Virus record (IMG/VR): IMGVR_UViG_3300041586_000139
Span: 1 to 50,676 of that record
Source: a virus
Length of the DNA stretch: 50,676 bases
Strand: one strand, 5' to 3'
The position numbers were made by a program, and so were the translations under genes. This document shows positions 7,469 to 45,172 of this stretch, one piece after another; positions within the stretch are counted from its first letter, which is position 1; every line of letters begins with the position of its first letter. The notes under the pieces are model-generated. The model worked only from the letters and a program-made list of their open reading frames with translations, was not told where the DNA came from and ran no database searches.

Positions 7469-7648
7469 ATGAGTATTAATGACGTGAAAAAGAAAAAAGT
7501 ACGTGTTGATTTCCTTCTCTCTGAGTTACGGAAGCAGAAGTTAATTACTTACAGCGAACAGGCTGAAATGAGCATGACAGAAGTGATTGAGTTTTTGATT
7601 GACACACTAAAAATTAAAAGGAGAAAACGCGATGCAGACAGTGAGTAA
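7469..7648 (+). CDS. Small RHH-like protein preceding the adenine methyltransferase, 59 aa
   Basis: ATG 7469 opens a 59-residue frame: basic start (DVKKKKVRVDFLLSELRKQK), then EQAEMSMTEVIEFLIDTLKIKRRKR, consistent with a ribbon-helix-helix or similar small DNA-binding fold. It overlaps the methyltransferase start by 17 bases, so the two are coupled, and the AAGGAG of the methyltransferase lies inside it. A regulator of the methylase is a reasonable guess. Confidence 0.65.
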   Translation: MSINDVKKKKVRVDFLLSELRKQKLITYSEQAEMSMTEVIEFLIDTLKIKRRKRDADSE

Positions 7649-8435
7649 ACCACTTGAACCGCCGCTAAAATGGGCGGGAGGCAAACGGCTTTTAGTACCT
7701 ACACTAAAGCCGTACTATGACAAGTTTCGCCACTGTCGGTTAGTAGAGCCATTCTGCGGCGGTTTGGCTGTCGCGCTAGGTTTACAGCCAGAAAGGGCGT
7801 TGCTGAATGACGTAAACCCGCATCTTATAAACCTATATTCGTGTATACAAAAAGGCTTAACATTAGATTTTCCAACAGTAAACACAAAAGAAGCTTACTT
7901 GCATTTTCGCAGTGAGTTCAATCGAGATTGTAGCTATATGCCAAGGGAGAGAAAGGCTGCTCTCTTCTATTACCTTAATCAGTCTGGATTTAACGGACTT
8001 TGCAGATTTAATAAAGATGGCGGGTTTAATGTTCCCTTTGGCAACCGTGTAAAACTAAAGTTAGACCATGATTTTACCGCTTTGGAAAATCAGTTCTCCC
8101 TGTGGAGATTTGCTAATTTAGATTTTGAAAATCTGAATACAACCGACAATGATTTTATCTATGCCGACCCACCCTATGACACACAATTTACGCACTACTC
8201 GCAAGGCGGTTTTGACTGGCAAGACCAAATCAGATGCGCTAAGTGGCTAGCCGACAAGCGATGCCCTGTAATCGCATCGAATCAAGCGACAGATAGGATT
8301 ATCAAATTGTACTCAGAGCTTGGCTTTGAGATTCAATTCGTTGACGCGAGACGATCTATCTCATGCAATGGCGATCGCGCCAAAGCGAAGGAAATTTTAG
8401 CTTTTAAAAATTTGGATATGGAGAATATCGCGTAA
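7632..8435 (+). CDS. dam: Orphan DNA adenine methyltransferase (Dam family)
   Basis: A 267-residue protein with the full Dam-class layout: LKWAGGKRLLVP near residues 13-24 (AdoMet motif I with Trp-Ala-Gly-Gly-Lys), VEPFCGGLAVAL at about 40-51, and catalytic DPPY at about 179-182. It transfers a methyl group to N6 of adenine, most likely in GATC. No partner restriction enzyme is adjacent. GATC lies inside HIP1 (GCGATCGC), which is very common in this genome, so methylation could protect it from host restriction. AAGGAG at 7619-7624 supports the start. Confidence 0.92.
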   Translation: MQTVSKPLEPPLKWAGGKRLLVPTLKPYYDKFRHCRLVEPFCGGLAVALGLQPERALLNDVNPHLINLYSCIQKGLTLDFPTVNTKEAYLHFRSEFNRDCSYMPRERKAALFYYLNQSGFNGLCRFNKDGGFNVPFGNRVKLKLDHDFTALENQFSLWRFANLDFENLNTTDNDFIYADPPYDTQFTHYSQGGFDWQDQIRCAKWLADKRCPVIASNQATDRIIKLYSELGFEIQFVDARRSISCNGDRAKAKEILAFKNLDMENIA

Positions 8436-9189: not shown

Positions 9190-9361
9190 ACATGTCGTTA
9201 AGTATAAATACTATCTAATGGAAAGATATCCACACCGAGATTGGAATGCATTTGTCGAGAGTTTGCGGGATTCGTATCCCGAAATGTATCGCGCTTATAC
9301 AGCCATGCCCAAGGTTGTTTTTGAAGTTATTCCCATCAACAAAAAAAAGTATAAAAAATGA
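9155..9361 (+). CDS. Small basic protein, 68 aa
   Basis: Starts at ATG 9155 within the preceding gene and ends one base before the cytosine methyltransferase. The product is very basic, with Lys-rich ends and an amphipathic middle (WNAFVESLRDSYPEMYRAY). It may be an accessory of the methyltransferase, with which it forms a coupled pair; no motif identifies it. Confidence 0.55.
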   Translation: MPTKRKPSLVSKHVVKYKYYLMERYPHRDWNAFVESLRDSYPEMYRAYTAMPKVVFEVIPINKKKYKK

Positions 9362-9362
9362 A

Positions 9363-10142
9363 ATGCAGCACATTACCCACTTTGATGGATTTGGCGGAAT
9401 CGGAGCCTTTAGCGAAGCCTTGCGAAGAACAGGTAAGGGGACGACTGTCGCCTATTGCGATATCTGCGAACACGCGAATCAAGTCTACAATCGGCACTTC
9501 CCAAATATACCTATTTACCCTGACATCAGAGAATACCACCCACCCCAAGGCGTTGACCTCTATACCTTTGGCTTCCCATGCACAGGCACAAGTCAAGCAG
9601 GAAGTAAGCGAGGGCTTGACCACGAGGAGTCTAACTTGTGGTTTGAAGGTCTCAGAATTATCCGAGAAGGATCACCAAGATTTGTCGTCATCGAAAATCC
9701 CACAGGACTGCTCGAAGTCGGTCGCGGAATGGGAACTATCTTACAAGGCTTATCCGAAAGCGGGTACGATGCGGAATGGCAAACTATCAGCGCTTCCACA
9801 TTTGGAAGCCCCCAAAAACGCGAAAGGGTTTTTATCGTTGCCCACCCTCACGACAGGGCTTGGATCAGGGCGCAATGCTGGGGCGACCAAGTGCGAGCAG
9901 CTATTGAGAAGCAAAAAGATTGTGCCAGATACCCAAAGTTTGAGTCCTCAGATGATGGCTATATTGTTCGGGTTCCCACCGAATTGGGCGATGTGCCTGT
10001 TGGCATCCCAAAAAAAGCCAAAGGGAGGAACGACATCAGGAAACTCTTTGGACGCACCATCGATCTAAATTGCGCCGCGATCGCGATCGAGCGAGTCTTG
10101 TATCTTGATAATTTCATCAGTTCGCATCGATGCATTTCATAA
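9363..10142 (+). CDS. dcm: Orphan DNA (cytosine-5) methyltransferase
   Basis: ATG 9363 gives 259 residues; the longer frame to 9246 lies over the previous gene. Motif I is HFDGFGGIGAFSEALRRTG (residues 5-23), motif IV is GFPCTGTSQ with the catalytic Cys at about 73, motif VI is VIENPTGLL (about 110, ENP instead of ENV), and motif VIII is QKRERVF (about 150). It methylates C5 of cytosine in an unknown target. It is short for the family, so the target-recognition region between motifs VIII and IX is small. No restriction enzyme is adjacent. Confidence 0.92.
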   Translation: MQHITHFDGFGGIGAFSEALRRTGKGTTVAYCDICEHANQVYNRHFPNIPIYPDIREYHPPQGVDLYTFGFPCTGTSQAGSKRGLDHEESNLWFEGLRIIREGSPRFVVIENPTGLLEVGRGMGTILQGLSESGYDAEWQTISASTFGSPQKRERVFIVAHPHDRAWIRAQCWGDQVRAAIEKQKDCARYPKFESSDDGYIVRVPTELGDVPVGIPKKAKGRNDIRKLFGRTIDLNCAAIAIERVLYLDNFISSHRCIS

Positions 10143-25489: not shown

Positions 25490-25562
25490 GCGAGAAGAGT
25501 GACACGGTTCATCTCAGGCTCATAATCTGAAGACAGCAGGGTTCGACTCCCTGCATCTCGCT
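25490..25562 (+). tRNA. tRNA-Met (anticodon CAU)-like gene
   Basis: Cloverleaf parts visible: acceptor GCGAGA / TCTCGC with an A-A mismatch next to it, D-stem GTGA/TCAT with GG in its loop, anticodon stem TCAGG/TCTGA around the loop CTCATAA (U33, CAU, A37), and T-arm CAGGG-TTCGACT-CCCTG with a perfect TTCRANY loop. CCA is not encoded. Position 8 is G rather than U and there is one extra pair or unpaired base between acceptor and T-stem. It lies on the plus strand inside a minus-strand operon and is followed by a terminator. Confidence 0.65.
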
Positions 25563-30589: not shown

Positions 30590-31934
30590 CGCAAGTTTTA
30601 TTTATAAAATAACACGACAGATTGAAAACTCAGTGTCTTCAGACCTGAGATGAAAATCGGACGAGCGAATTTATTCGCTTTAGTCTTTTCTTATTACAGG
30701 TATGGTATCATAAGAATATGTTAGTACTAGAGTTTAAAACCTACGGCAAAGCTGCTCAGTTCAGCGCAATAGATGAAGCAATCCGAACGACTCAGTTCAT
30801 TCGGAATAAAGCTATTCGCTTGTGGATGGACGGGCAAGCCAAGTCTTGTTTTGACTTAAACAAATACACTGCTATTTTGGCTAAAGAATTTGACTTTGCA
30901 AATAAGTTAAATTCAATGGCTAGGCAATCCGCAGCAGAAAGAGCATGGGCTAGTGTCTCGCGGTTCTACGACAATTGTAAAAAGAAGGTAACTGGTAAAA
31001 AAGGTTATCCAACTTTTCAAAAAGATTGTCGCAGTGTTGAGTATAAGACCTCTGGATGGAAACTTGCAAAAGACCGCAAATCTATAAAGTTCACAGATAA
31101 ATGCGGTATTGGCAAGCTTAAATTAAAAGGTACTCGCGACTTAAACTTCTATCAGATTGAGCAAATTAAGCGTATTCGCATTGTTAAACGTGCGGATGGC
31201 TATTATGCTCAATTTTGCGTAGATGTTGACCGTAAAGAGGTGTTAGAGCCTAGTCGGAAAACACTTGGGTTAGATGTTGGCTTAAACCATTTCTATACCG
31301 ATTCCGATGGTCAAACAGTCGAGAATCCTAGATACCTTAGAAAATCTGAGCGCAAACTAAAAAAGCTACAGCGCAAAGTTTCTAAGCGTAAAAAAGGATC
31401 TGCTAATCGTCGCAAAGCGGTTAAACGGTTAGCAAGAAAACATTTGCAAGTCAGTAGACAGCGTAAAGATTTTGCAGTGAAGACTGCAAGATGCGTAGTT
31501 CGGTCTAACGACCTGATTGCCTACGAAGATTTGCAAGTGCGGAATATGGTTAAGAATCATAAGTTAGCCAAGAGTATCAGTGATGCAAGCTGGTCAATGT
31601 TTCGGCTATGGGTTGAGTATTTTGGCAAGGTATTTGGTAAGGTCACTGTTGCAGTACCGCCTCACTATACGAGCCAAAATTGTTCTACCTGCGGAACATT
31701 AGTTAAAAAGACTCTGAGTACCAGAACGCATCAATGCAGTCATTGTGGAACGGTATTGGATAGAGATCACAATGCTGCACTGAATATCTTGGCTCTTGGT
31801 TTGAGTAGGGTAGGGCATACCCAAATTAACGCCTGTGGAGAGTTCGACCTCTGCCAAGTAGATGTAAGTCTATCTGGTAAGTTGTCTCGCTGAATCAGGA
31901 ATCTCAGTCGCTTCAGCGCTGAGAGTGTCAATGT
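30590..31934 (+). mobile_element. TnpB-only IS200/IS605 (IS1341-type) element
   Basis: A single tnpB gene is flanked by subterminal hairpins: CTCAG(TGTCTTCAGA)CCTGAG near 30628-30650 on the left and CTCAG(TCGCTTCAG)CGCTGAG near 31905-31923 on the right, the latter followed by AGTGTCAA. No TnpA is present, so movement needs a transposase in trans. The right end touches the terminase 3' end. Exact boundaries are estimated; TTTAC at 30578-30582 (or TTAC) may be the left target motif. The segment downstream of tnpB would encode the guide RNA. Confidence 0.75.
30718..31893 (+). CDS. tnpB: RNA-guided nuclease TnpB
   Basis: The 391-residue protein has all RuvC residues of an active TnpB: Asp in LGLDVGLNHF (about 183), Glu in IAYEDLQVRNM (about 268) and Asp in LDRDHNAALNI (about 347). 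The zinc ribbon CSTCG / CSHCG is at about 322-343. Length and motif order are normal and there is no frameshift, so it appears functional. TnpB cuts DNA at sites matching the guide RNA made from its element's 3' end, adjacent to a short target motif, which favours element retention. Confidence 0.93.
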   Translation: MLVLEFKTYGKAAQFSAIDEAIRTTQFIRNKAIRLWMDGQAKSCFDLNKYTAILAKEFDFANKLNSMARQSAAERAWASVSRFYDNCKKKVTGKKGYPTFQKDCRSVEYKTSGWKLAKDRKSIKFTDKCGIGKLKLKGTRDLNFYQIEQIKRIRIVKRADGYYAQFCVDVDRKEVLEPSRKTLGLDVGLNHFYTDSDGQTVENPRYLRKSERKLKKLQRKVSKRKKGSANRRKAVKRLARKHLQVSRQRKDFAVKTARCVVRSNDLIAYEDLQVRNMVKNHKLAKSISDASWSMFRLWVEYFGKVFGKVTVAVPPHYTSQNCSTCGTLVKKTLSTRTHQCSHCGTVLDRDHNAALNILALGLSRVGHTQINACGEFDLCQVDVSLSGKLSR

Positions 31935-33374: not shown

Positions 33375-34148
33375 TTACATCAGCATAAGCACAGCCTTAG
33401 CGCTCTCCAAGTAATCAATGCGATCAGCTAAACCGTTCGTACCGCCATTGATTATCCGAGTAATTCTGTTGACATCATCTCGATCAGCGATCGCATTGAG
33501 TTTATGTTTATCCCAGAACCACCCCGCGCTAAGGCAAGCTAAATCAAAATCTTCCAGTCTTTCAGGGTTAGAGATTAAATCAATCCCTAAAGCCTCGCCA
33601 CATTCGCGGACATTGGCGCGTCCTGTGACTTGGATCAATCCGCGACCACGGAATCTAGCCCCGTCACCCGCTTGCGTATTCCCTAAATCAGTACGCCATT
33701 CATAATCCTCGCCCGATGCATATTCTCGATTAGTATTAAAACCGTCGCTCTCATGGGCAGTCTGCGCGAGAAAATGGGCGATCCTCAAAGGCGTATTGAT
33801 CTCATAGCGTTGCATTGTCGAATTGAGGTATGGGAGTAACTTGGCTACGCGATCGAGATCGGCGAAAATAGCAATGCGTTTTAGCTGGTCGAAAGTAATC
33901 AAATCAGGCAAGATCAACTTGCCATCTTCAAACACTTCAACATGGGGCGAGAATCCGTACCACTTGCCAAGGTAGCTGTCTTGCATTGAGAAAAAGCTGA
34001 AGTTGTTACCTAACGCATCGTAGGTAATTGCATAAATCTCAGTCCCTGCTGCGATCGATTGCTTTTGATCATCGGGTAATGTGGACGAATCGACTGGATA
34101 CCGTTTTAGGACAGTATTAACTATAGCTTTGATTAAATATTTACTCAC
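33375..34148 (-). CDS. Endolysin, GH19 chitinase-like muramidase
   Basis: The C-terminal two thirds form a GH19 fold: IAHFLAQTAHESDGF (about 122-136, catalytic Glu), GARFRGRGLIQVTGRANVRECGEALG (about 161-186) and WFWDKHKLNAIADRDDVNRITRIINGG. It degrades peptidoglycan at the end of infection. The N-terminal 85 residues are a separate beta-rich part (EIYAITYDALGNNFSFF) that may bind the cell wall. No signal peptide is seen, so export needs a holin. It precedes the terminase gene in the same operon. Confidence 0.88.
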   Translation of the reverse strand: MSKYLIKAIVNTVLKRYPVDSSTLPDDQKQSIAAGTEIYAITYDALGNNFSFFSMQDSYLGKWYGFSPHVEVFEDGKLILPDLITFDQLKRIAIFADLDRVAKLLPYLNSTMQRYEINTPLRIAHFLAQTAHESDGFNTNREYASGEDYEWRTDLGNTQAGDGARFRGRGLIQVTGRANVRECGEALGIDLISNPERLEDFDLACLSAGWFWDKHKLNAIADRDDVNRITRIINGGTNGLADRIDYLESAKAVLMLM

Positions 34149-39563: not shown

Positions 39564-39893
39564 TCATGTTTTCTCCTTAGCTTTGATTATCGTTTCAGCA
39601 ATCATACGATAGATCACTTCGTCCTCGATGGTGTTCGTGCATAGATGAAACACACGCCAGCCTAGCGATGAAGCGAGATTAATCTTTTCGTACTCAGTGG
39701 CTAACCCACTACCTCTTGAATGTCTGCCATCCGTCCATATGCCGCCATTGATCTCGATCGCCACTTTAGCCAAAGGGCAAGCAAAGTCGAACCGAAATCT
39801 GCGAGGACTAGCAAAGCGATACTCAGAATGTAAGTCGATCGCAGGATAGTAGGCAATCCACAGATCCGCGAATGTATTCTCAAGTTTGGACAC
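39564..39893 (-). CDS. PD-(D/E)XK-type endonuclease (Vsr/DUF559-like)
   Basis: In 109 residues, RFRFDFACPLAKVAIEINGGIW (about 33-54; catalytic Asp and Glu-x-Asn in the D-ExK arrangement), then DGRHSRGSGLATEYEKINLASSLGWRVFHL is the pattern of small Vsr/DUF559-like nucleases common in phages. They act in recombination, resolution or DNA processing. It is the last gene of the 44.9-39.6 kb membrane operon, 42 bases after the 64-aa gene. Confidence 0.78.
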   Translation of the reverse strand: MSKLENTFADLWIAYYPAIDLHSEYRFASPRRFRFDFACPLAKVAIEINGGIWTDGRHSRGSGLATEYEKINLASSLGWRVFHLCTNTIEDEVIYRMIAETIIKAKEKT

Positions 39894-39935
39894 ATCAACT
39901 CTTTTTAATACTCATCAGGTTTAATGTATTCCTCT

Positions 39936-40130
39936 TTAATATTTACGTTTTTTTACTGGGACATAGCCGCCAATTGTGCCGTCAGCACGAGTTTCATAAT
40001 GTTCAATTGGGCGATCATAATTGGTCACCTTTGTGATCAATTCAGGGTTGGCGACCTGTTCCAGTAAGGCAATCATCTGCTTACGCTGTTTTTTAGTCAT
40101 TTTATTAGTCGTAATTTCTTTGGTGTCCAT
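39936..40130 (-). CDS. Hypothetical basic protein, 64 aa
   Basis: ATG 40130 (MDTKEITTNKMTKKQRKQ) is preferred to the longer frame. Its core, KKQRKQMIALLEQVANPELI...ADGTIGGY, resembles the remnant frame just upstream (LRSLLELIVNPAQV...PDGTLGR), so the two look like tandem paralogues. Function unknown; basic C-terminus. Confidence 0.6.
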   Translation of the reverse strand: MDTKEITTNKMTKKQRKQMIALLEQVANPELITKVTNYDRPIEHYETRADGTIGGYVPVKKRKY

Positions 40131-40328
40131 GCCGCGATTTTGAAGCTTTGAGATACTGTTCGGAACGTCCAAGAGTGCCGTCAGGCATCTCAATGCAATT
40201 AACCACTTCGAGCTTGTTAGGGCAGAACCTAACCTGTGCGGGATTCACAATTAGCTCTAGCAGTGATCTCAATTCGCTTTTGGTCTTTTTGGAAATTGAC
40301 GTTACTGCTCGTCCTCGTATTTCTGAAT
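40105..40328 (-). pseudogene. Open frame without start codon, paralogue of the next gene
   Basis: The frame is open from about 40334 to TAA 40105 and encodes SKKTKSELRSLLELIVNPAQ... with similarity to the 39936-40130 protein, but there is no ATG or GTG near its beginning (a TTG is possible at about 40267). It overlaps the tail of the 55-aa membrane gene in another frame. It may be a frameshifted gene, a -1 frameshift extension of that gene, or a degraded duplicate. Confidence 0.45.
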
Positions 40329-40469
40329 CATAGTTGTTCTATAAAGACATCGCTCTAGTAATCGGCGCTGAAATCCTAGGCAATCGCGTTGAGATTCTGC
40401 TTCAAGATGTTGGAGCAAAAGCCAAGTGAAACGAGCGAAAATTAGCATTAAAAAAAGTGCGATGATCAT
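40302..40469 (-). CDS. Small single-TM protein, 55 aa
   Basis: ATG 40469 overlaps the stop of the M23/transglycosylase gene (ATGA). The product begins MIIALFLMLIFARFTWLLL, one membrane helix, followed by a charged cytoplasmic-type tail with two Cys. Translational coupling suggests it is a partner of the hydrolase or the ATPase. Confidence 0.65.
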   Translation of the reverse strand: MIIALFLMLIFARFTWLLLQHLEAESQRDCLGFQRRLLERCLYRTTMIQKYEDEQ

Positions 40470-41626
40470 TGTTTTTTAAACCTTTCCAATACTGTTTTTG
40501 TGTAATCTTGAATACTTGGATAATCGCCAGCGCCGTATGTTTGCGGATTAGTATTATCGTAAAGTTCAGACCTACCTGAATACCAAATAGAAGCAGCTTT
40601 GCGAATCTGAGTGTCCTCATCACTCGATGTTTTAGCAGTTTCTTGGAGAGCTTCATCTAATTTGCAATCAATGACCTGAATCTGTTTTGCTTTATTAGCT
40701 AAAAATTCAGCCTCGGTCAGTTCTTTCCCAAGACATTGTTTTGTCCAACTTTTTATATTCTCTGGCATGACTTGACCATAGCCAAGAGCGTTCGAGTGTG
40801 GGTTAACTGCGGACGGATCATGATTTGATTCTTGACCAGCGATCGCATTGCGTAATCTTTCTACGATTGGTTTTGTTGATACCTTTTGAGGTTCTTTCCC
40901 TTCCAAGCTCCATCGGACAATCCCAGTAGTCGGATGTTGCCATTCCGATTTAAAGTTGAGCTTTGCCCAGTCGCCAACAACGCGAATACCAAAGTGTAAA
41001 TGAGCGCCAGTAGAATCGCCAGTATTGCCAGTTTCTGCAAACTTCGCACCAACATCACGCCTACCGCCATCGCAGGATTTTAAGTGCCAATAAACTAATT
41101 CCACATCAGGAAAATCAGGGACTTTAACATAGGCTGCTATGCCCTCGGCGTTTCTTCCCGTCAGATTGTGATCGCACCATATATCTGCATAGCCCGTAAA
41201 AGCCTTATTGCCTTCAGTGCGTCCGACTACATATAGCGGAGTCCCTTCAGGCGTTGCAAGATCGATCCCGTTATGGTGTTTTTTTACGCCGCTGAGAGGA
41301 TGGACGCGATCGCCAAACCCAGATGTGACTTCGTATCCTAATATTTTATCGCCCTCTTTAACAGGTTTGGTAAAGTCTGCATCAGTTTTATAGTTAAGTA
41401 CTGCGATCGCTTTTTGACTATCAGTATTTGGTAATCCAAGCGATCTCCATGTTGCTTTTACAACAAAATTTAGGGGGGATAAAAAGATAAATAAAGGGAT
41501 TAATCCAAGGGAATAAGTAAGGCTAGCGATCGCCCAGCCCCTATAGTTTGCTTTGCGGTTTTCGTGAAATTGGTGTTGATATTCCTTTGTGCAACTGGTT
41601 AGGGGCGGTTGTACTACTAAAGTCAT
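40466..41626 (-). CDS. Membrane-anchored M23 peptidase - lytic transglycosylase fusion, 386 aa
   Basis: A membrane helix at about 33-52 (YSLGLIPLFIFLSPLNF) anchors the protein. The M23 domain follows: GFGDRVHPLSGVKKHHNGIDLA (about 99-120, His and Asp zinc ligands) and GNTGDSTGAHLHFGI (about 197-211). The C-terminal part from about 262 has a soluble-transglycosylase core, AGQESNHDPSAVNPHSNALGYGQVMPENI (catalytic Glu). Such two-enzyme proteins locally open peptidoglycan in conjugation or phage entry machines (VirB1-like). It starts 85 bases inside the preceding gene. Confidence 0.87.
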   Translation of the reverse strand: MTLVVQPPLTSCTKEYQHQFHENRKANYRGWAIASLTYSLGLIPLFIFLSPLNFVVKATWRSLGLPNTDSQKAIAVLNYKTDADFTKPVKEGDKILGYEVTSGFGDRVHPLSGVKKHHNGIDLATPEGTPLYVVGRTEGNKAFTGYADIWCDHNLTGRNAEGIAAYVKVPDFPDVELVYWHLKSCDGGRRDVGAKFAETGNTGDSTGAHLHFGIRVVGDWAKLNFKSEWQHPTTGIVRWSLEGKEPQKVSTKPIVERLRNAIAGQESNHDPSAVNPHSNALGYGQVMPENIKSWTKQCLGKELTEAEFLANKAKQIQVIDCKLDEALQETAKTSSDEDTQIRKAASIWYSGRSELYDNTNPQTYGAGDYPSIQDYTKTVLERFKKQ

Positions 41627-41978
41627 AATCTAAAACTTTATCCAAACTAATATCTAATTTCTTACCGTTCGCAGTGAAATATCGGAGCGTTTTATGAGTT
41701 GTCTCACAAAAAGAATTACCCGCAATTACTGTCACTTCTCTCAATGTTTTGGCAGTTTTCAAAGCCCTAATTTGCTCTAAATCTAATGGCTTTGTCTGCG
41801 CTGGTTTCGTGAGACAGCCCTCGGTATTGCCATCAATAATCTTTGCGAATTGCGAATCCTTCGGGATGAAATTTAAAGGATTATGGAACGCTAGATAATC
41901 CTTCTCGACCATGTTGGATATAAAAAAACTGGTTGCAACTATTGGCAGCGCAACCAGTAAAACAGTAATAAGCTTCAT
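41541..41978 (-). CDS. Exported or membrane-anchored protein, 145 aa
   Basis: The N-terminus MKLITVLLVALPIVATSFFIS is a signal-anchor; the rest is soluble with two Cys (about 55 and 90) that could form a disulfide outside the cytoplasm. Overlaps both neighbours. No family recognised. Confidence 0.65.
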   Translation of the reverse strand: MKLITVLLVALPIVATSFFISNMVEKDYLAFHNPLNFIPKDSQFAKIIDGNTEGCLTKPAQTKPLDLEQIRALKTAKTLREVTVIAGNSFCETTHKTLRYFTANGKKLDISLDKVLDYDFSSTTAPNQLHKGISTPISRKPQSKL

Positions 41979-42454
41979 TAGTTGGAAGTGAAAACGACTT
42001 TAGCTTTTGGCATTAAATCGCTGCCAGTCGTGCGATCGCTTGCAGACTCATTCTCTTTAACTTGGCGGTTTTGAACAGCATCGAAGGTTGAACCAGTCAA
42101 ACCTCTAGCGCCGACAACAGTGTTATTAACAAGAGCGTTAAGCTCACCGCCAGCCTGTTTGTCTGTAAGGGTTGTAGGATTATTCCTGAGCAAAGCAACT
42201 GGCGTTGTAACAACAATCGGATATATTACAAAACGGATTACAAGGCAAAACAGGGTAAAACTAAACGGATAAAGCCAAGCGACTTTTAAAGTGGCTTTAA
42301 ACAAAATCCAAATAGAAAATCGCGTATTTGTATCAATGGCATATACAGGGCGATCGCTGCTAGTGCCAATGTCTAAAACGCCATCGCGATCAGTGTCTAA
42401 ATCTCTCATGCCAGTGGGGCGGATTCCTTCGTGGCGAATCATTTGTGAACTCAT
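41978..42454 (-). CDS. Membrane protein with two hydrophobic segments, 158 aa
   Basis: A soluble N-terminus with an Asp-rich DLDTDRDGVLDIG motif (calcium-loop-like, dockerin type), then hydrophobic stretches at about 47-85 (FSIWILFKATLKVAWLYPFSFTLFCLVIRFVIYPIVV) and a Ser/Thr/Asn-rich tail. The stop is one base from the next start. Function unknown; part of the membrane operon. Confidence 0.62.
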   Translation of the reverse strand: MSSQMIRHEGIRPTGMRDLDTDRDGVLDIGTSSDRPVYAIDTNTRFSIWILFKATLKVAWLYPFSFTLFCLVIRFVIYPIVVTTPVALLRNNPTTLTDKQAGGELNALVNNTVVGARGLTGSTFDAVQNRQVKENESASDRTTGSDLMPKAKVVFTSN

Positions 42455-43518
42455 GCTAATCTCCTTAGTGGTATTACGTTTGAATTGTCGAAGAGGCTGT
42501 CAAGTTCATCTTGAGCATCTTCAGTTTGTTGCCTTAAATCAGGCACGGATACGTTTATCGGGGCGTTTGGGTTGCGTTGCAGATAAAGATTACCCCTGCC
42601 TGATGGAATTGTTTTGCCAGTCGAGCTTGGTTTTCCAATTAGCTCTAGTTTTGCCATGCCTAAATCCCTGTTTTTACCCATACCTGATTTCTTGGTAAGG
42701 TTGCCAAGAGTATCGCCATGAGTGACAAAAATGACGTGGATACGAACTTTACGAATATCGGATAATGCACTGCTAAAGAACTCGTCAGAGTTCTGACATT
42801 TATCGTTCCACTGAGTAAACTCTTCGCAAATTATCGTAATAGGTTGCGGAGAGAAGTCTTTGATTTTGGAATATTGAGTATATCGACTATCAATAAGCTG
42901 CTGAAAATCAACTAACGCTTGATCGATCGCTTTATAATCCCTTCCATCACCAGTCACTTCTAATCCCTCCCAAGCGCCATATTTGCGCTGAGGATCTAGC
43001 ACGATAACCTCATGCCCTAATTCTTGCCTAGCCTTGACTTCGGCTTCTACAAAGGTAGTTTTGCCACTGCCCTGCTCTCCATAGATTAAGAGGCAATTAA
43101 CTTCATGCAATCCATTAATCCATCCGTGAGGATCTTGATTGCGATCGCTTAAATCAGGAGTATAACTTTGCTGCTTTTGAGTCTGTGGAACCACTGAGCG
43201 ATTAACAACTGTATTGCTATTATTGAACACTACAGGGGCTAACGGCTGTGCTAATGGCTGTGTGATTAATGGCTTATCGCTAAGCTCTTTAATCATCATT
43301 CCAAAAGCCCCGACCGCCATGAGTCCGACAATACTCATTAGCCCAGTATTGTTATAGGAACGAGCGTTGAGGCTTAGAGCTTGACGATTGATTGCGTACT
43401 TTTCCAAAGCAACCCCTAACTCCTCCCGATTTTGTATCAGATAAGGCATAGGACTAGCCAAAGCAGCCAAAGCGATGCAACTAGAGATAAAACTAAAAGC
43501 ATAGGGTAGAGCTTTCAT
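42451..43518 (-). CDS. Membrane-bound P-loop ATPase (FtsK/HerA/VirD4-like)
   Basis: Hydrophobic segments at about 4-25 and 58-80 anchor the protein. Walker A is LIYGEQGSGKTTF (about 142-154), Walker B-like ITIICEEFTQWN (about 226-237, with EE), and HVIFVTHGDTLGNL (about 258-271) is a third motor motif. The domain order, TM-TM-motor, matches DNA-pumping or coupling ATPases of secretion and conjugation. It is encoded between coiled-coil and membrane proteins, so it is the likely engine of this operon. Which substrate it moves is unknown. Confidence 0.8.
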   Translation of the reverse strand: MKALPYAFSFISSCIALAALASPMPYLIQNREELGVALEKYAINRQALSLNARSYNNTGLMSIVGLMAVGAFGMMIKELSDKPLITQPLAQPLAPVVFNNSNTVVNRSVVPQTQKQQSYTPDLSDRNQDPHGWINGLHEVNCLLIYGEQGSGKTTFVEAEVKARQELGHEVIVLDPQRKYGAWEGLEVTGDGRDYKAIDQALVDFQQLIDSRYTQYSKIKDFSPQPITIICEEFTQWNDKCQNSDEFFSSALSDIRKVRIHVIFVTHGDTLGNLTKKSGMGKNRDLGMAKLELIGKPSSTGKTIPSGRGNLYLQRNPNAPINVSVPDLRQQTEDAQDELDSLFDNSNVIPLRRLA

Positions 43519-44171
43519 TTTGTTAACTCCGCAGCGATCGCGTTATCACTTTGCTTCAGGATATTGACTCTAATCTCCAGTTCTTTGATGATCGCCGCAC
43601 TCGTAATATTTGGGGTGAAGACAACGCTAGGAGCGCCATCTAAAGCAATACGAGCCGCTTTAATATCAAATAACGATTGATTCGCCGACTCCCATTTGCG
43701 AGACAGCACAGCATCTTTATATCTGGCTTCCTTTTCAGGAATGAATTTTGATATAAAACAGGCTTCTCGATACTGACTGCGAAAACAAGAGCTATTTTTG
43801 TCGGCAACTTGACGTTTCGCTTCAGTTAAAATTTCTTGGCTACGCTCGACTAACATCGCCTGTATGGTTTGAGTGATTTTGATATCAGTTGCTATCCTGA
43901 TATCAGCCAAGCTGTCTTTTGTCCCTTCCAGAATCACTTTATCAATTGCTTCCAAGTTTGGAGCGTTGCTTTGCATTGGCGCAACATTAACGGGCTTATC
44001 GACTATGGCAGTGCTACGCATGGCGACCGCGCCAATGATTAGTAAGGTCAAGCCACCGCCGATCACGCCTAGAGAACGAGGACTCACCCAGCCAAAATTA
44101 TTACCCTGATAGGTTGTCATCGCCATCGGCGCTATTGTTTGATCGCTAATGTTTGGCTGGATGTCCATCAT
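43515..44171 (-). CDS. Single-TM protein with external coiled-coil domain, 218 aa
   Basis: One membrane helix (SLGVIGGGLTLLIIGAVAM, about 33-51) follows a soluble N-terminus; beyond it lies a helical, charged region with two Cys (about 133 and 141). The layout suggests an inner-membrane platform or stalk protein for the neighbouring ATPase, with which it overlaps by four bases. Confidence 0.62.
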   Translation of the reverse strand: MMDIQPNISDQTIAPMAMTTYQGNNFGWVSPRSLGVIGGGLTLLIIGAVAMRSTAIVDKPVNVAPMQSNAPNLEAIDKVILEGTKDSLADIRIATDIKITQTIQAMLVERSQEILTEAKRQVADKNSSCFRSQYREACFISKFIPEKEARYKDAVLSRKWESANQSLFDIKAARIALDGAPSVVFTPNITSAAIIKELEIRVNILKQSDNAIAAELTK

Positions 44172-44176
44172 GTCGT

Positions 44177-44608
44177 TTAAGCTCCCGTCAGTTGTCGCGG
44201 TGTATTCAGAGCCATCGATAGGAAATTCTGATCGAGAGTAGTCCGATCCATCAAATCCGCCAGCCCAACCGTGTCCGTGCTGGGCATCCCATCTAAAAAA
44301 CGGCTGTACAAACCTACTGCATCGCGAGTAATGTCTGAAGATTGCTCGACCAGCTTAAAGGCTGTCAAGCCTGCCGATGCTTTCTTGATTCTCGCCACAG
44401 CCGCATCAGAGACTTGATGCGCTGCTTCGATGTCCGACAGTTGAAGTTGCTTTTGCGCGTCTTGAAGACGAACACTCATGTCGCTAGATTGTTCGGGTGT
44501 TGCAGGAACTGAGCGATCAGTTCCGCGTTTGTTGCTTTGCACTTCTACTTTTTCAGTAGAAGCTGCTCCGTCTGCCATTGCTTTCTTTTGTGCTTCAGTC
44601 AGTGCCAT
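44177..44608 (-). CDS. Hypothetical soluble helical protein, 143 aa
   Basis: Ala/Asp/Ser-rich, mostly helical (VRLQDAQKQLQLSDIEAAHQ), no membrane segment. It overlaps the 98-aa gene by 14 bases and lies five bases before the next start. Role in the operon unknown. Confidence 0.55.
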   Translation of the reverse strand: MALTEAQKKAMADGAASTEKVEVQSNKRGTDRSVPATPEQSSDMSVRLQDAQKQLQLSDIEAAHQVSDAAVARIKKASAGLTAFKLVEQSSDITRDAVGLYSRFLDGMPSTDTVGLADLMDRTTLDQNFLSMALNTPRQLTGA

Positions 44609-44891
44609 TCAAAATCTCCATTATTCTTGTGTAATTTCTTCTTCCTGCTTCGCGAGTATTACCTCGCGCTTTCAATGCTTTTCCTGCTCCAAAACAGGCT
44701 ATTAATTCAGCGTCACTCTTATAAAACGGAGATCTCTTTTTCATCTTGCTAGCCCAGCCCTTAAAAGTCCCGTATGAAACATTAAAAAACTGTGCCCACT
44801 CATTTAAGGATCTTTGCTCATCTCCCATTCTTTTTTTTGATTGGCTTATGGGCTGGTCAATGGCTGTCTCATGAGACGGCTCATCAGCCAT
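44595..44891 (-). CDS. Putative HTH-containing first gene of the membrane operon, 98 aa
   Basis: Contains SLNEWAQFFNVSYGTFKGWASKMKKRS, an HTH-like stretch (about 28-55), and a basic C-terminal half. It begins just after a divergent promoter region shared with the RHH gene at 44975. A regulator or DNA-targeting component is plausible. Confidence 0.58.
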   Translation of the reverse strand: MADEPSHETAIDQPISQSKKRMGDEQRSLNEWAQFFNVSYGTFKGWASKMKKRSPFYKSDAELIACFGAGKALKARGNTREAGRRNYTRIMEILNGTD

Positions 44892-44974: not shown

Positions 44975-45172
44975 ATGCCACAAGCAAAGCCTCGTTCCAT
45001 AAGATTTGATGAAAATGTTGATGTTGCCATTGAGCGAGAATCACAAGGGCGGAAAATGGCGTTTTCCGCCCTTGTGAACGAATATTGCTCTGAAAGGGTT
45101 ATTGCTAAGGAGCCGACTATATATGAGAGGTTGGAAAATCTTGAAGCGCGACTTGAGAAATTAGAAAGCTAA
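44975..45172 (+). CDS. RHH/CopG-like regulator, 65 aa
   Basis: Begins PRSIRFDENVDVAIERESQGRKMAFSALVNEYCSERV, the strand-helix-helix order of CopG/Arc proteins, then a short coiled coil (ENLEARLEKLES). It is divergent from the membrane operon and ends at a strong terminator, so it probably controls that operon (and itself). The start has no clear ribosome-binding site. Confidence 0.72.
   Translation: MPQAKPRSIRFDENVDVAIERESQGRKMAFSALVNEYCSERVIAKEPTIYERLENLEARLEKLES

Follow-up and report, generated by a model that had tools for sequence, protein, structure and literature searches.

What does a run of overlapping genes for a membrane ATPase and a membrane-anchored cell-wall hydrolase do in the genome of a tailed phage? 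The question is raised by IMG/VR virus record IMGVR_UViG_3300041586_000139, which was analyzed over its whole length of 50,676 bases (the window). On its minus strand, a run of overlapping or abutting open reading frames (ORFs) extends from position 44891 down to 40302, and the core of this run recurs in other phage contigs as well as in cyanobacterial replicons. We propose that this cassette encodes a compact DNA-export apparatus through the cell envelope, independent of type IV secretion systems (T4SS) and common to cyanobacterial plasmids and tailed cyanophages, a reading in which our confidence is about evenly balanced. DNA export fits best because a pump-class motor, envelope proteins and a wall hydrolase of two activities are combined on mobile DNA. 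Our literature search found no title or abstract describing the cassette, which is no proof that it is undescribed.

The cassette in phages and cyanobacterial replicons

The window represents a real tailed phage, with matches to a terminase, a portal and a major head protein as well as to tail genes, among them one for a tail-associated lysin; DnaB helicase, a sliding clamp and an endolysin were matched too. The palindrome GCGATCGC, which we take to be the HIP1 signature of cyanobacterial DNA, occurs 76 times in the window compared with 1.0 expected, and therefore points to a cyanobacterium as the host. Two DNA methyltransferases are encoded in the same window (Table 1).

The conserved core of the run comprises five slots in fixed order, namely a bitopic membrane protein, an FtsK/HerA ATPase with two transmembrane (TM) segments, a membrane protein, an exported two-cysteine protein and a membrane-anchored M23 peptidase fused to a transglycosylase, compared with the ten genes that the original prediction had treated as one operon. 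The overlapping genes listed there, from a helix-turn-helix (HTH)-like protein to a membrane protein of 55 amino acids (aa), do exist as ORFs, with junction overlaps of mostly 1-14 nt and one of 86 nt between the exported-protein and M23 genes, and a divergent ribbon-helix-helix (RHH) gene flanks them as described. In phage cassettes the HTH gene and a helical protein stand ahead of the core and the RHH gene is divergent; the unit in the window accordingly reads RHH (divergent), HTH, 143-aa, 218-aa, ATPase, 158-aa, 145-aa and hydrolase. The PD-(D/E)XK nuclease, which has no counterpart in related phages, and two overlapping small ORFs, which the prediction had called paralogues and which have no trustworthy similarity match there, were ruled out as cassette parts and are not counted in the conserved unit because of this lack of conservation.

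Alignment-based scans of IMG/VR contigs retrieved the same gene order from 3300044912_000492, 3300037541_000705, 3300044707_000751 and 3300035438_001811 (G005), as well as from 3300034061_006266, where the contig ends within the cassette. Gene order is also preserved in 3300031951_000374 and 3300008110_011177, with a distant FtsK-type protein as the motor, and 3300032292_001230 retains the exported protein and the hydrolase near its contig end. Five to seven phage contigs besides the window carry the cassette. Loss of the ATPase slot in one locus (L038) was considered and ruled out, as that position is occupied by a different FtsK-type protein, which has a membrane part at its N terminus. Alignments were required for these scans, a single-sequence scan with the ATPase giving no match in viral or genome contigs. 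Among cultured phages, megablast and tblastn returned no relative of the region or of the ATPase, the matches being confined to isolated M23 and SLT domains. G005 is itself a tailed phage according to portal, terminase, head and tape-measure matches. At a cut-off of 1e-5, BLAST matched none of the window's portal, head and terminase proteins in the related phages G001-G005, whose cassette proteins share 34-63% identity with those of the window; the cassette is therefore better conserved than the virion genes.

On the cellular side, 390 cyanobacterial genomes were searched with the hydrolase and, independently, with the exported protein. All 17 full-length hydrolase loci examined carry the cassette, either as such or in divergent form, and in one of them the ATPase ORF is split in two. 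The exported protein was detected at 24 places in 14 of the 390 genomes, and the 22 places checked all lie just 5' of a hydrolase (18 adjoin hydrolase hits, four more were inspected in place). Hydrolase matches of partial coverage include loci without the cassette (L176, L180), and as at least one copy (L196) lies within a 5.46-Mb contig, the cassette is not confined to plasmids. Phage and plasmid slots were compared for homology by hhalign, with E-values of single comparisons: 9e-18 for the ATPase slot, 6e-13 (probability 98%) for the bitopic protein, 2e-6 (89%) for the exported protein and a weaker 4.5e-4 (33%) for the 158-aa protein, next to 0.20 and 0.24 for two off-slot control pairs. The recurrence of the gene order across phage contigs and cyanobacterial replicons is more than chance; both this conserved neighborhood and the co-occurrence of ATPase and hydrolase, on which the original prediction hinged, were found, the latter being very strong. 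In the annotations inspected, the plasmid cassettes appear merely as hypothetical proteins and hydrolases, and no system had been recognized.

Among the individual proteins, the RHH-like protein gave no match in a Pfam search and has homologues of 28% (G002) and 41% (G005) identity at the equivalent divergent position, the latter itself matching G001 and G003. Homologues of the HTH-like protein (weak HTH_28 match in Pfam, E 0.07) head the cassette in G002, G005 and G007 at 50-66% identity. Cys129 and Cys138 are invariant in the bitopic protein, which is 43-63% identical in phage contigs and 23% in L038 and has no relative among solved structures. The 158-aa membrane protein (30-57% identity in phage cassettes) features an N-terminal DxDxDG motif in its phage members, and the exported protein reaches 34-44% there; a BamE-like fold is not claimed for the latter, as its model is too poor (mean predicted local distance difference test, pLDDT, of 53). 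Short ORFs of similar size to the 55-aa protein follow the hydrolase in relatives, but have no detectable similarity to it.

Table 1. Positions of the cassette genes and of further features in the window.
Feature	Position	Strand	Remarks
RHH-like 65-aa protein	44975..45172	+	divergent; probable cassette regulator
HTH-like 98-aa protein	44595..44891	-	first gene of the cassette
Helical soluble 143-aa protein	44177..44608	-	positional homologue in phage cassettes; sequence weakly conserved
Bitopic 218-aa protein	43515..44171	-	TM 33-51; soluble helical domain
FtsK/HerA-type ATPase, 355 aa	42451..43518	-	two TM; P-loop
Membrane protein, 158 aa	41978..42454	-	central hydrophobic stretch
Exported protein, 145 aa	41541..41978	-	two invariant cysteines, Cys55 and Cys91
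Cell-wall hydrolase, 386 aa	40466..41626	-	TM 32-50 anchor; M23 peptidase and SLT transglycosylase
One-TM 55-aa protein	40302..40469	-	overlaps hydrolase stop; accessory
Two overlapping small ORFs	39936-40272		
PD-(D/E)XK nuclease gene	39564-39893		phrog_503 match
Endolysin/chitinase-type lysin	33375-34148		away from the cassette
TnpB-like gene, IS605-type	30718-31893	+	adjoins terminase gene
tRNA gene	25490-25562		anticodon CAT; only one
DNA methyltransferase gene	9246-10142		
DNA methyltransferase gene	7632-8435		

Outside the cassette, a terminase 50% identical to that of the window (L056, G012:C1:21413-22756) contains two in-frame TAG codons, possibly reflecting TAG reassignment or a broken gene.

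The motor and the wall hydrolase

The ATPase begins with TM helices at about 3-21 and 58-80, followed by a linker, the motor at about 130-330 and the C-terminal tail NVIPLRR. Its Walker motifs are intact, with Walker A GEQGSGKT at 147-154 and IICEE at 229-233. A profile search of solved structures placed FtsK first (2e-6), then HerA-type DUF87 (4e-4) and TcpA (7e-4), and relatives of the cassette motor match FtsK_SpoIIIE and DUF87 in Pfam above cut-off. An AlphaFold model based on 29 sequences (mean pLDDT 73.8, about 90 in the motor core) displays N-terminal membrane helices and a RecA-type core, and Foldseek retrieved EccC/EssC, FtsK (2.6e-7) and TcpA (6o1x, E 3.7e-7) with this model. A viral fold search yielded FtsK-like phage proteins, Zot and A32-type packaging ATPases and no sharper name. 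By profile and fold, the motor slot is occupied by an FtsK/HerA superfamily ATPase with a RecA-type core, which falls among the FtsK/TcpA/EccC-type pumps.

The motor domain is one of two swapped parts of the cassette. Between G002 and G005 the hydrolase is 96%, the exported protein 100% and the bitopic protein 88% identical, and the motors show about 20% identity, or about 14-27% per 40-column block, flanked by an anchor of about 90% and a last block, containing the NVIPLRR tail, of 90%. In the ATPase genes concerned by this swap (L032:10001-11161 and L029:3720-4814), the motor domain is replaced between conserved ends. A distant cassette motor has weak FtsK-type matches on Streptomyces plasmids. 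Exchange of the motor between closely related phages is expected for parts in conflict, and along with EccC and EssC among the nearest folds and the divergent RHH-like regulator of the phage cassette, it could indicate a secretion or exclusion device, whose motor would export a protein or build an envelope complex blocking competing phages or plasmids. Such a device seems unlikely to us, as no constant kind of cargo gene was seen among the cassette genes, exclusion does not usually involve a wall hydrolase, and relaxases co-occur with the cassette.

The closest plasmid relatives of the window motor were found on 36 cyanobacterial plasmids at about 23-34% identity. On Nostocales plasmids (L002-L013), a conserved and mostly hypothetically annotated run of small genes, a helical protein, a two-TM protein and a DUF87-type ATPase of 470-620 aa often adjoins ParM/StbA, ParG and CyRepA1 replication genes. 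A ParM-like gene also opens the clusters of Oscillatoria acuminata and Nostoc C052, and ParM-like genes precede the SLT-M23 genes in L040 and L049. All this would suit an envelope-docked system for plasmid or prophage maintenance, in which an FtsK-like motor clears or moves plasmid DNA at the septum and the hydrolase remodels the septal wall, serving inheritance and not transfer. Partition, however, has no obvious need for a membrane-anchored wall hydrolase of two activities, relaxases co-occur in a subset of cassette contigs, and phages keep the cassette too, which makes maintenance a rather unlikely explanation.

Pfam matches of the hydrolase exceed the cut-off for both M23 (31.6 bits) and SLT (21.9 bits), bearing out the membrane-anchored fusion that had been predicted. 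The catalytic motifs are intact (M23 H118, D122, H209 and H211; SLT Glu266), and the SLT Glu is invariant across 8 sequences. The glycan-cutting domain, the second swapped part, is SLT in phages and most plasmids and GH108 in O. acuminata; the hydrolase end features an AEGT motif in place of SLT in G287, G273 and G212, and in Leptolyngbya boryana and Nostoc C052 an AEGN motif is carried by an exported protein encoded next to the hydrolase. The AEGT and AEGN parts are presumably lysozyme-like. In an unrooted hydrolase tree, the six phage sequences fall on one side of a fully supported branch, which is consistent with one exchange between phages and cellular elements. Related arrangements were also seen without the motor: Nostoc C052 plasmid pC052_F (L113:7666-12071) has a cassette-like order of ParM-like gene, membrane proteins, exported protein, TM-M23 and lysozyme-like gene with no P-loop ATPase seen, and two viral contigs (L040:7880-10870 and L049:7809-10870) encode a ParM-like protein, a coiled-coil TM protein and a hydrolase with SLT and M23 in reverse order, the ATPase being absent.

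M23 domains are common in endolysins, and the SLT domain is related to those of minor tail proteins and of large proteins near tail-like genes in other phages. A late lytic or virion function, with the hydrolase and membrane proteins aiding lysis or genome delivery through the wall, would account for these relationships. The window nevertheless encodes a separate endolysin, the cassette hydrolase is TM-anchored, its gene overlaps motor-cassette genes, and the cassette also occurs on relaxase plasmids where no phage gene was recognized. It is thus not a lysis-dedicated endolysin operon confined to phages (holins and spanins were outside the search), in agreement with the original prediction, and we regard a lytic or virion role as improbable.

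Relaxase plasmids and proposed DNA export

A TrwC relaxase of 1153 aa (PF08751, 1e-84) shares a contig with the cassette in G324:C3, G171:C25, G329:C320 and G359:C524. G329:C320 (50.9 kb) is probably a circular plasmid, because its TrwC gene is split over the contig ends. Including the MOBP-type relaxases of O. acuminata pOSCIL6304.02, L. boryana p1 and G171:C7, a relaxase accompanies the cassette on its contig in seven cases. Neither a VirB10 (TrbI) match nor a TrwB-type coupling protein was found on the four TrwC contigs or on pOSCIL6304.02, a complete circular plasmid that gave no VirB4 family match either; the VirB10 and TrwB matches of the small-plasmid genomes sit on other contigs. VirB4 (PF03135) was not matched in any of 20 genomes or records, and since TrbI matches occur elsewhere in several such genomes, this model is probably insensitive to cyanobacterial VirB4. 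An absence of T4SS from the host genomes, as the VirB4 result might imply, was ruled out by the VirB10 and TrwB matches on other contigs. As L. boryana p1 has both VirB10 and TrwB matches, about 40 kb from the cassette, and the VirB4 model is probably insensitive, our statement is limited to small relaxase plasmids: these carry the cassette without recognized VirB10 or TrwB.

The original prediction had offered a reduced DNA-transfer, superinfection-exclusion or plasmid-state transfer apparatus, of which the DNA-transfer branch is favored over exclusion by the co-occurrence of ATPase and hydrolase, the FtsK/TcpA/EccC-type motor and the relaxase on a subset of cassette plasmids, with DNA movement itself remaining putative. 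In a DNA-export apparatus, the ATPase would assemble as a membrane hexamer and drive DNA outward, while the bitopic and exported proteins would form the periplasmic part and position the hydrolase, which would open peptidoglycan by cutting two different kinds of bond. The substrate on plasmids with a relaxase may be plasmid DNA in double-stranded form or with the relaxase attached; for the phage, export might allow its genome, or a prophage in plasmid-like form, to reach neighboring cells, perhaps along the filament. Specificity for DNA or partners would lie with the exchangeable motor, while the anchor and C-terminal tail would keep docking constant.

Several observations weigh against DNA export. 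The motor fold does not settle the cargo, because EccC/EssC, FtsK and TcpA folds move DNA or proteins. In L168:6537-7805 and its relatives, with orthologues in many plasmid and chromosomal cassette copies, Walker A is degenerate (NPRVGKG) beside a normal-looking Walker B, and such a motif in one large plasmid lineage is difficult to reconcile with ATP-driven pumping as a universal function. The plasmid genes most closely related to the window motor adjoin partition and replication genes, and the annotated neighborhoods inspected showed no wall hydrolase. Relaxases occur on a subset of cassette contigs only, and a search covering the TrwC type found none in 15 phage records, some of them fragments. 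A TrwB-like protein is encoded on the larger contigs G346:C111, G356:C18 and G171:C7, roughly 35-45 kb from the cassette; given this and the limited distribution of relaxases, cassette plasmids could be mobilized in trans. Lastly, no recognizable outer-membrane channel, pilus or VirB4 was found with the cassette.

A wider reading can be attached to DNA export, which we put forward tentatively and consider doubtful: a non-T4SS machine that combines an exchangeable FtsK/HerA motor and a dual wall hydrolase with two membrane proteins and one exported protein may carry plasmids from cell to cell in multicellular cyanobacteria, and may have been adopted by tailed phages as a way of moving their genomes between cells without virions. 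We take the 36 plasmid records with motor relatives to be all from filamentous genera, and the same presumably holds for the cassette hosts known by name (Leptolyngbya, Oscillatoria, Nostoc, Tildeniella and Lyngbya). Spread along filaments is only a suggestion. A phage bearing such a cassette would blur the boundary between phage and conjugative plasmid, and the motor and glycosidase swaps show the interchangeable parts of an architecture that is testable in the culturable L. boryana and O. acuminata PCC 6304. According to PMC8600333, 88% of 424 cyanobacterial plasmids lack recognized transfer genes and are called immobile; an export-type cassette could explain the movement of some of them.

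Comparison with known transfer systems

With T4SS conjugation, including the cyanobacterial MPF_C type as described in PMC8600333, the cassette shares an ATPase of the coupling-protein class, a relaxase on some plasmids and a VirB1-like wall hydrolase. Unlike in T4SS, the hydrolase fuses M23 with a glycosidase, and the small cassette plasmids have no detected VirB10 or, with the probably insensitive model, VirB4. The scans run assigned neither the membrane proteins nor the exported protein of the cassette to any T4SS family. TcpA, the coupling protein of pCW3, is among the nearest solved folds of the motor and matches it by profile, at a sequence identity of 12-15%; it works with a full set of conjugation partners. 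The CyRepA1-linked Nostocales modules contain the closest plasmid relatives of the window motor, likewise preceded by helical and TM proteins, but their ATPases are mostly larger (about 470-620 aa) and adjoin genes for replication and ParM, and no wall hydrolase was seen in the neighborhoods inspected.

TdtA of Thermus ICETh1 is a mobile-element FtsK/HerA membrane ATPase needed for DNA donation without T4SS (PMC5365140). Its neighbors are a NurA nuclease and a restriction-methylation pair, and the account in PMC5365140 describes no wall hydrolase or comparable membrane partners; no NurA annotation was seen adjoining the annotated plasmid cassettes. The Streptomyces TraB/Spd system resembles the cassette in combining an FtsK-type membrane motor with small membrane proteins on a plasmid, without T4SS and in hosts growing as filaments (PMC12857230). 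Unlike that system, the cassette includes a dedicated wall hydrolase with two activities as well as an exported protein, and its hosts are diderm. As far as PMC12857230 and PMC5365140 describe them, TraB and TdtA provide precedents for FtsK/HerA pumps that work without a T4SS.

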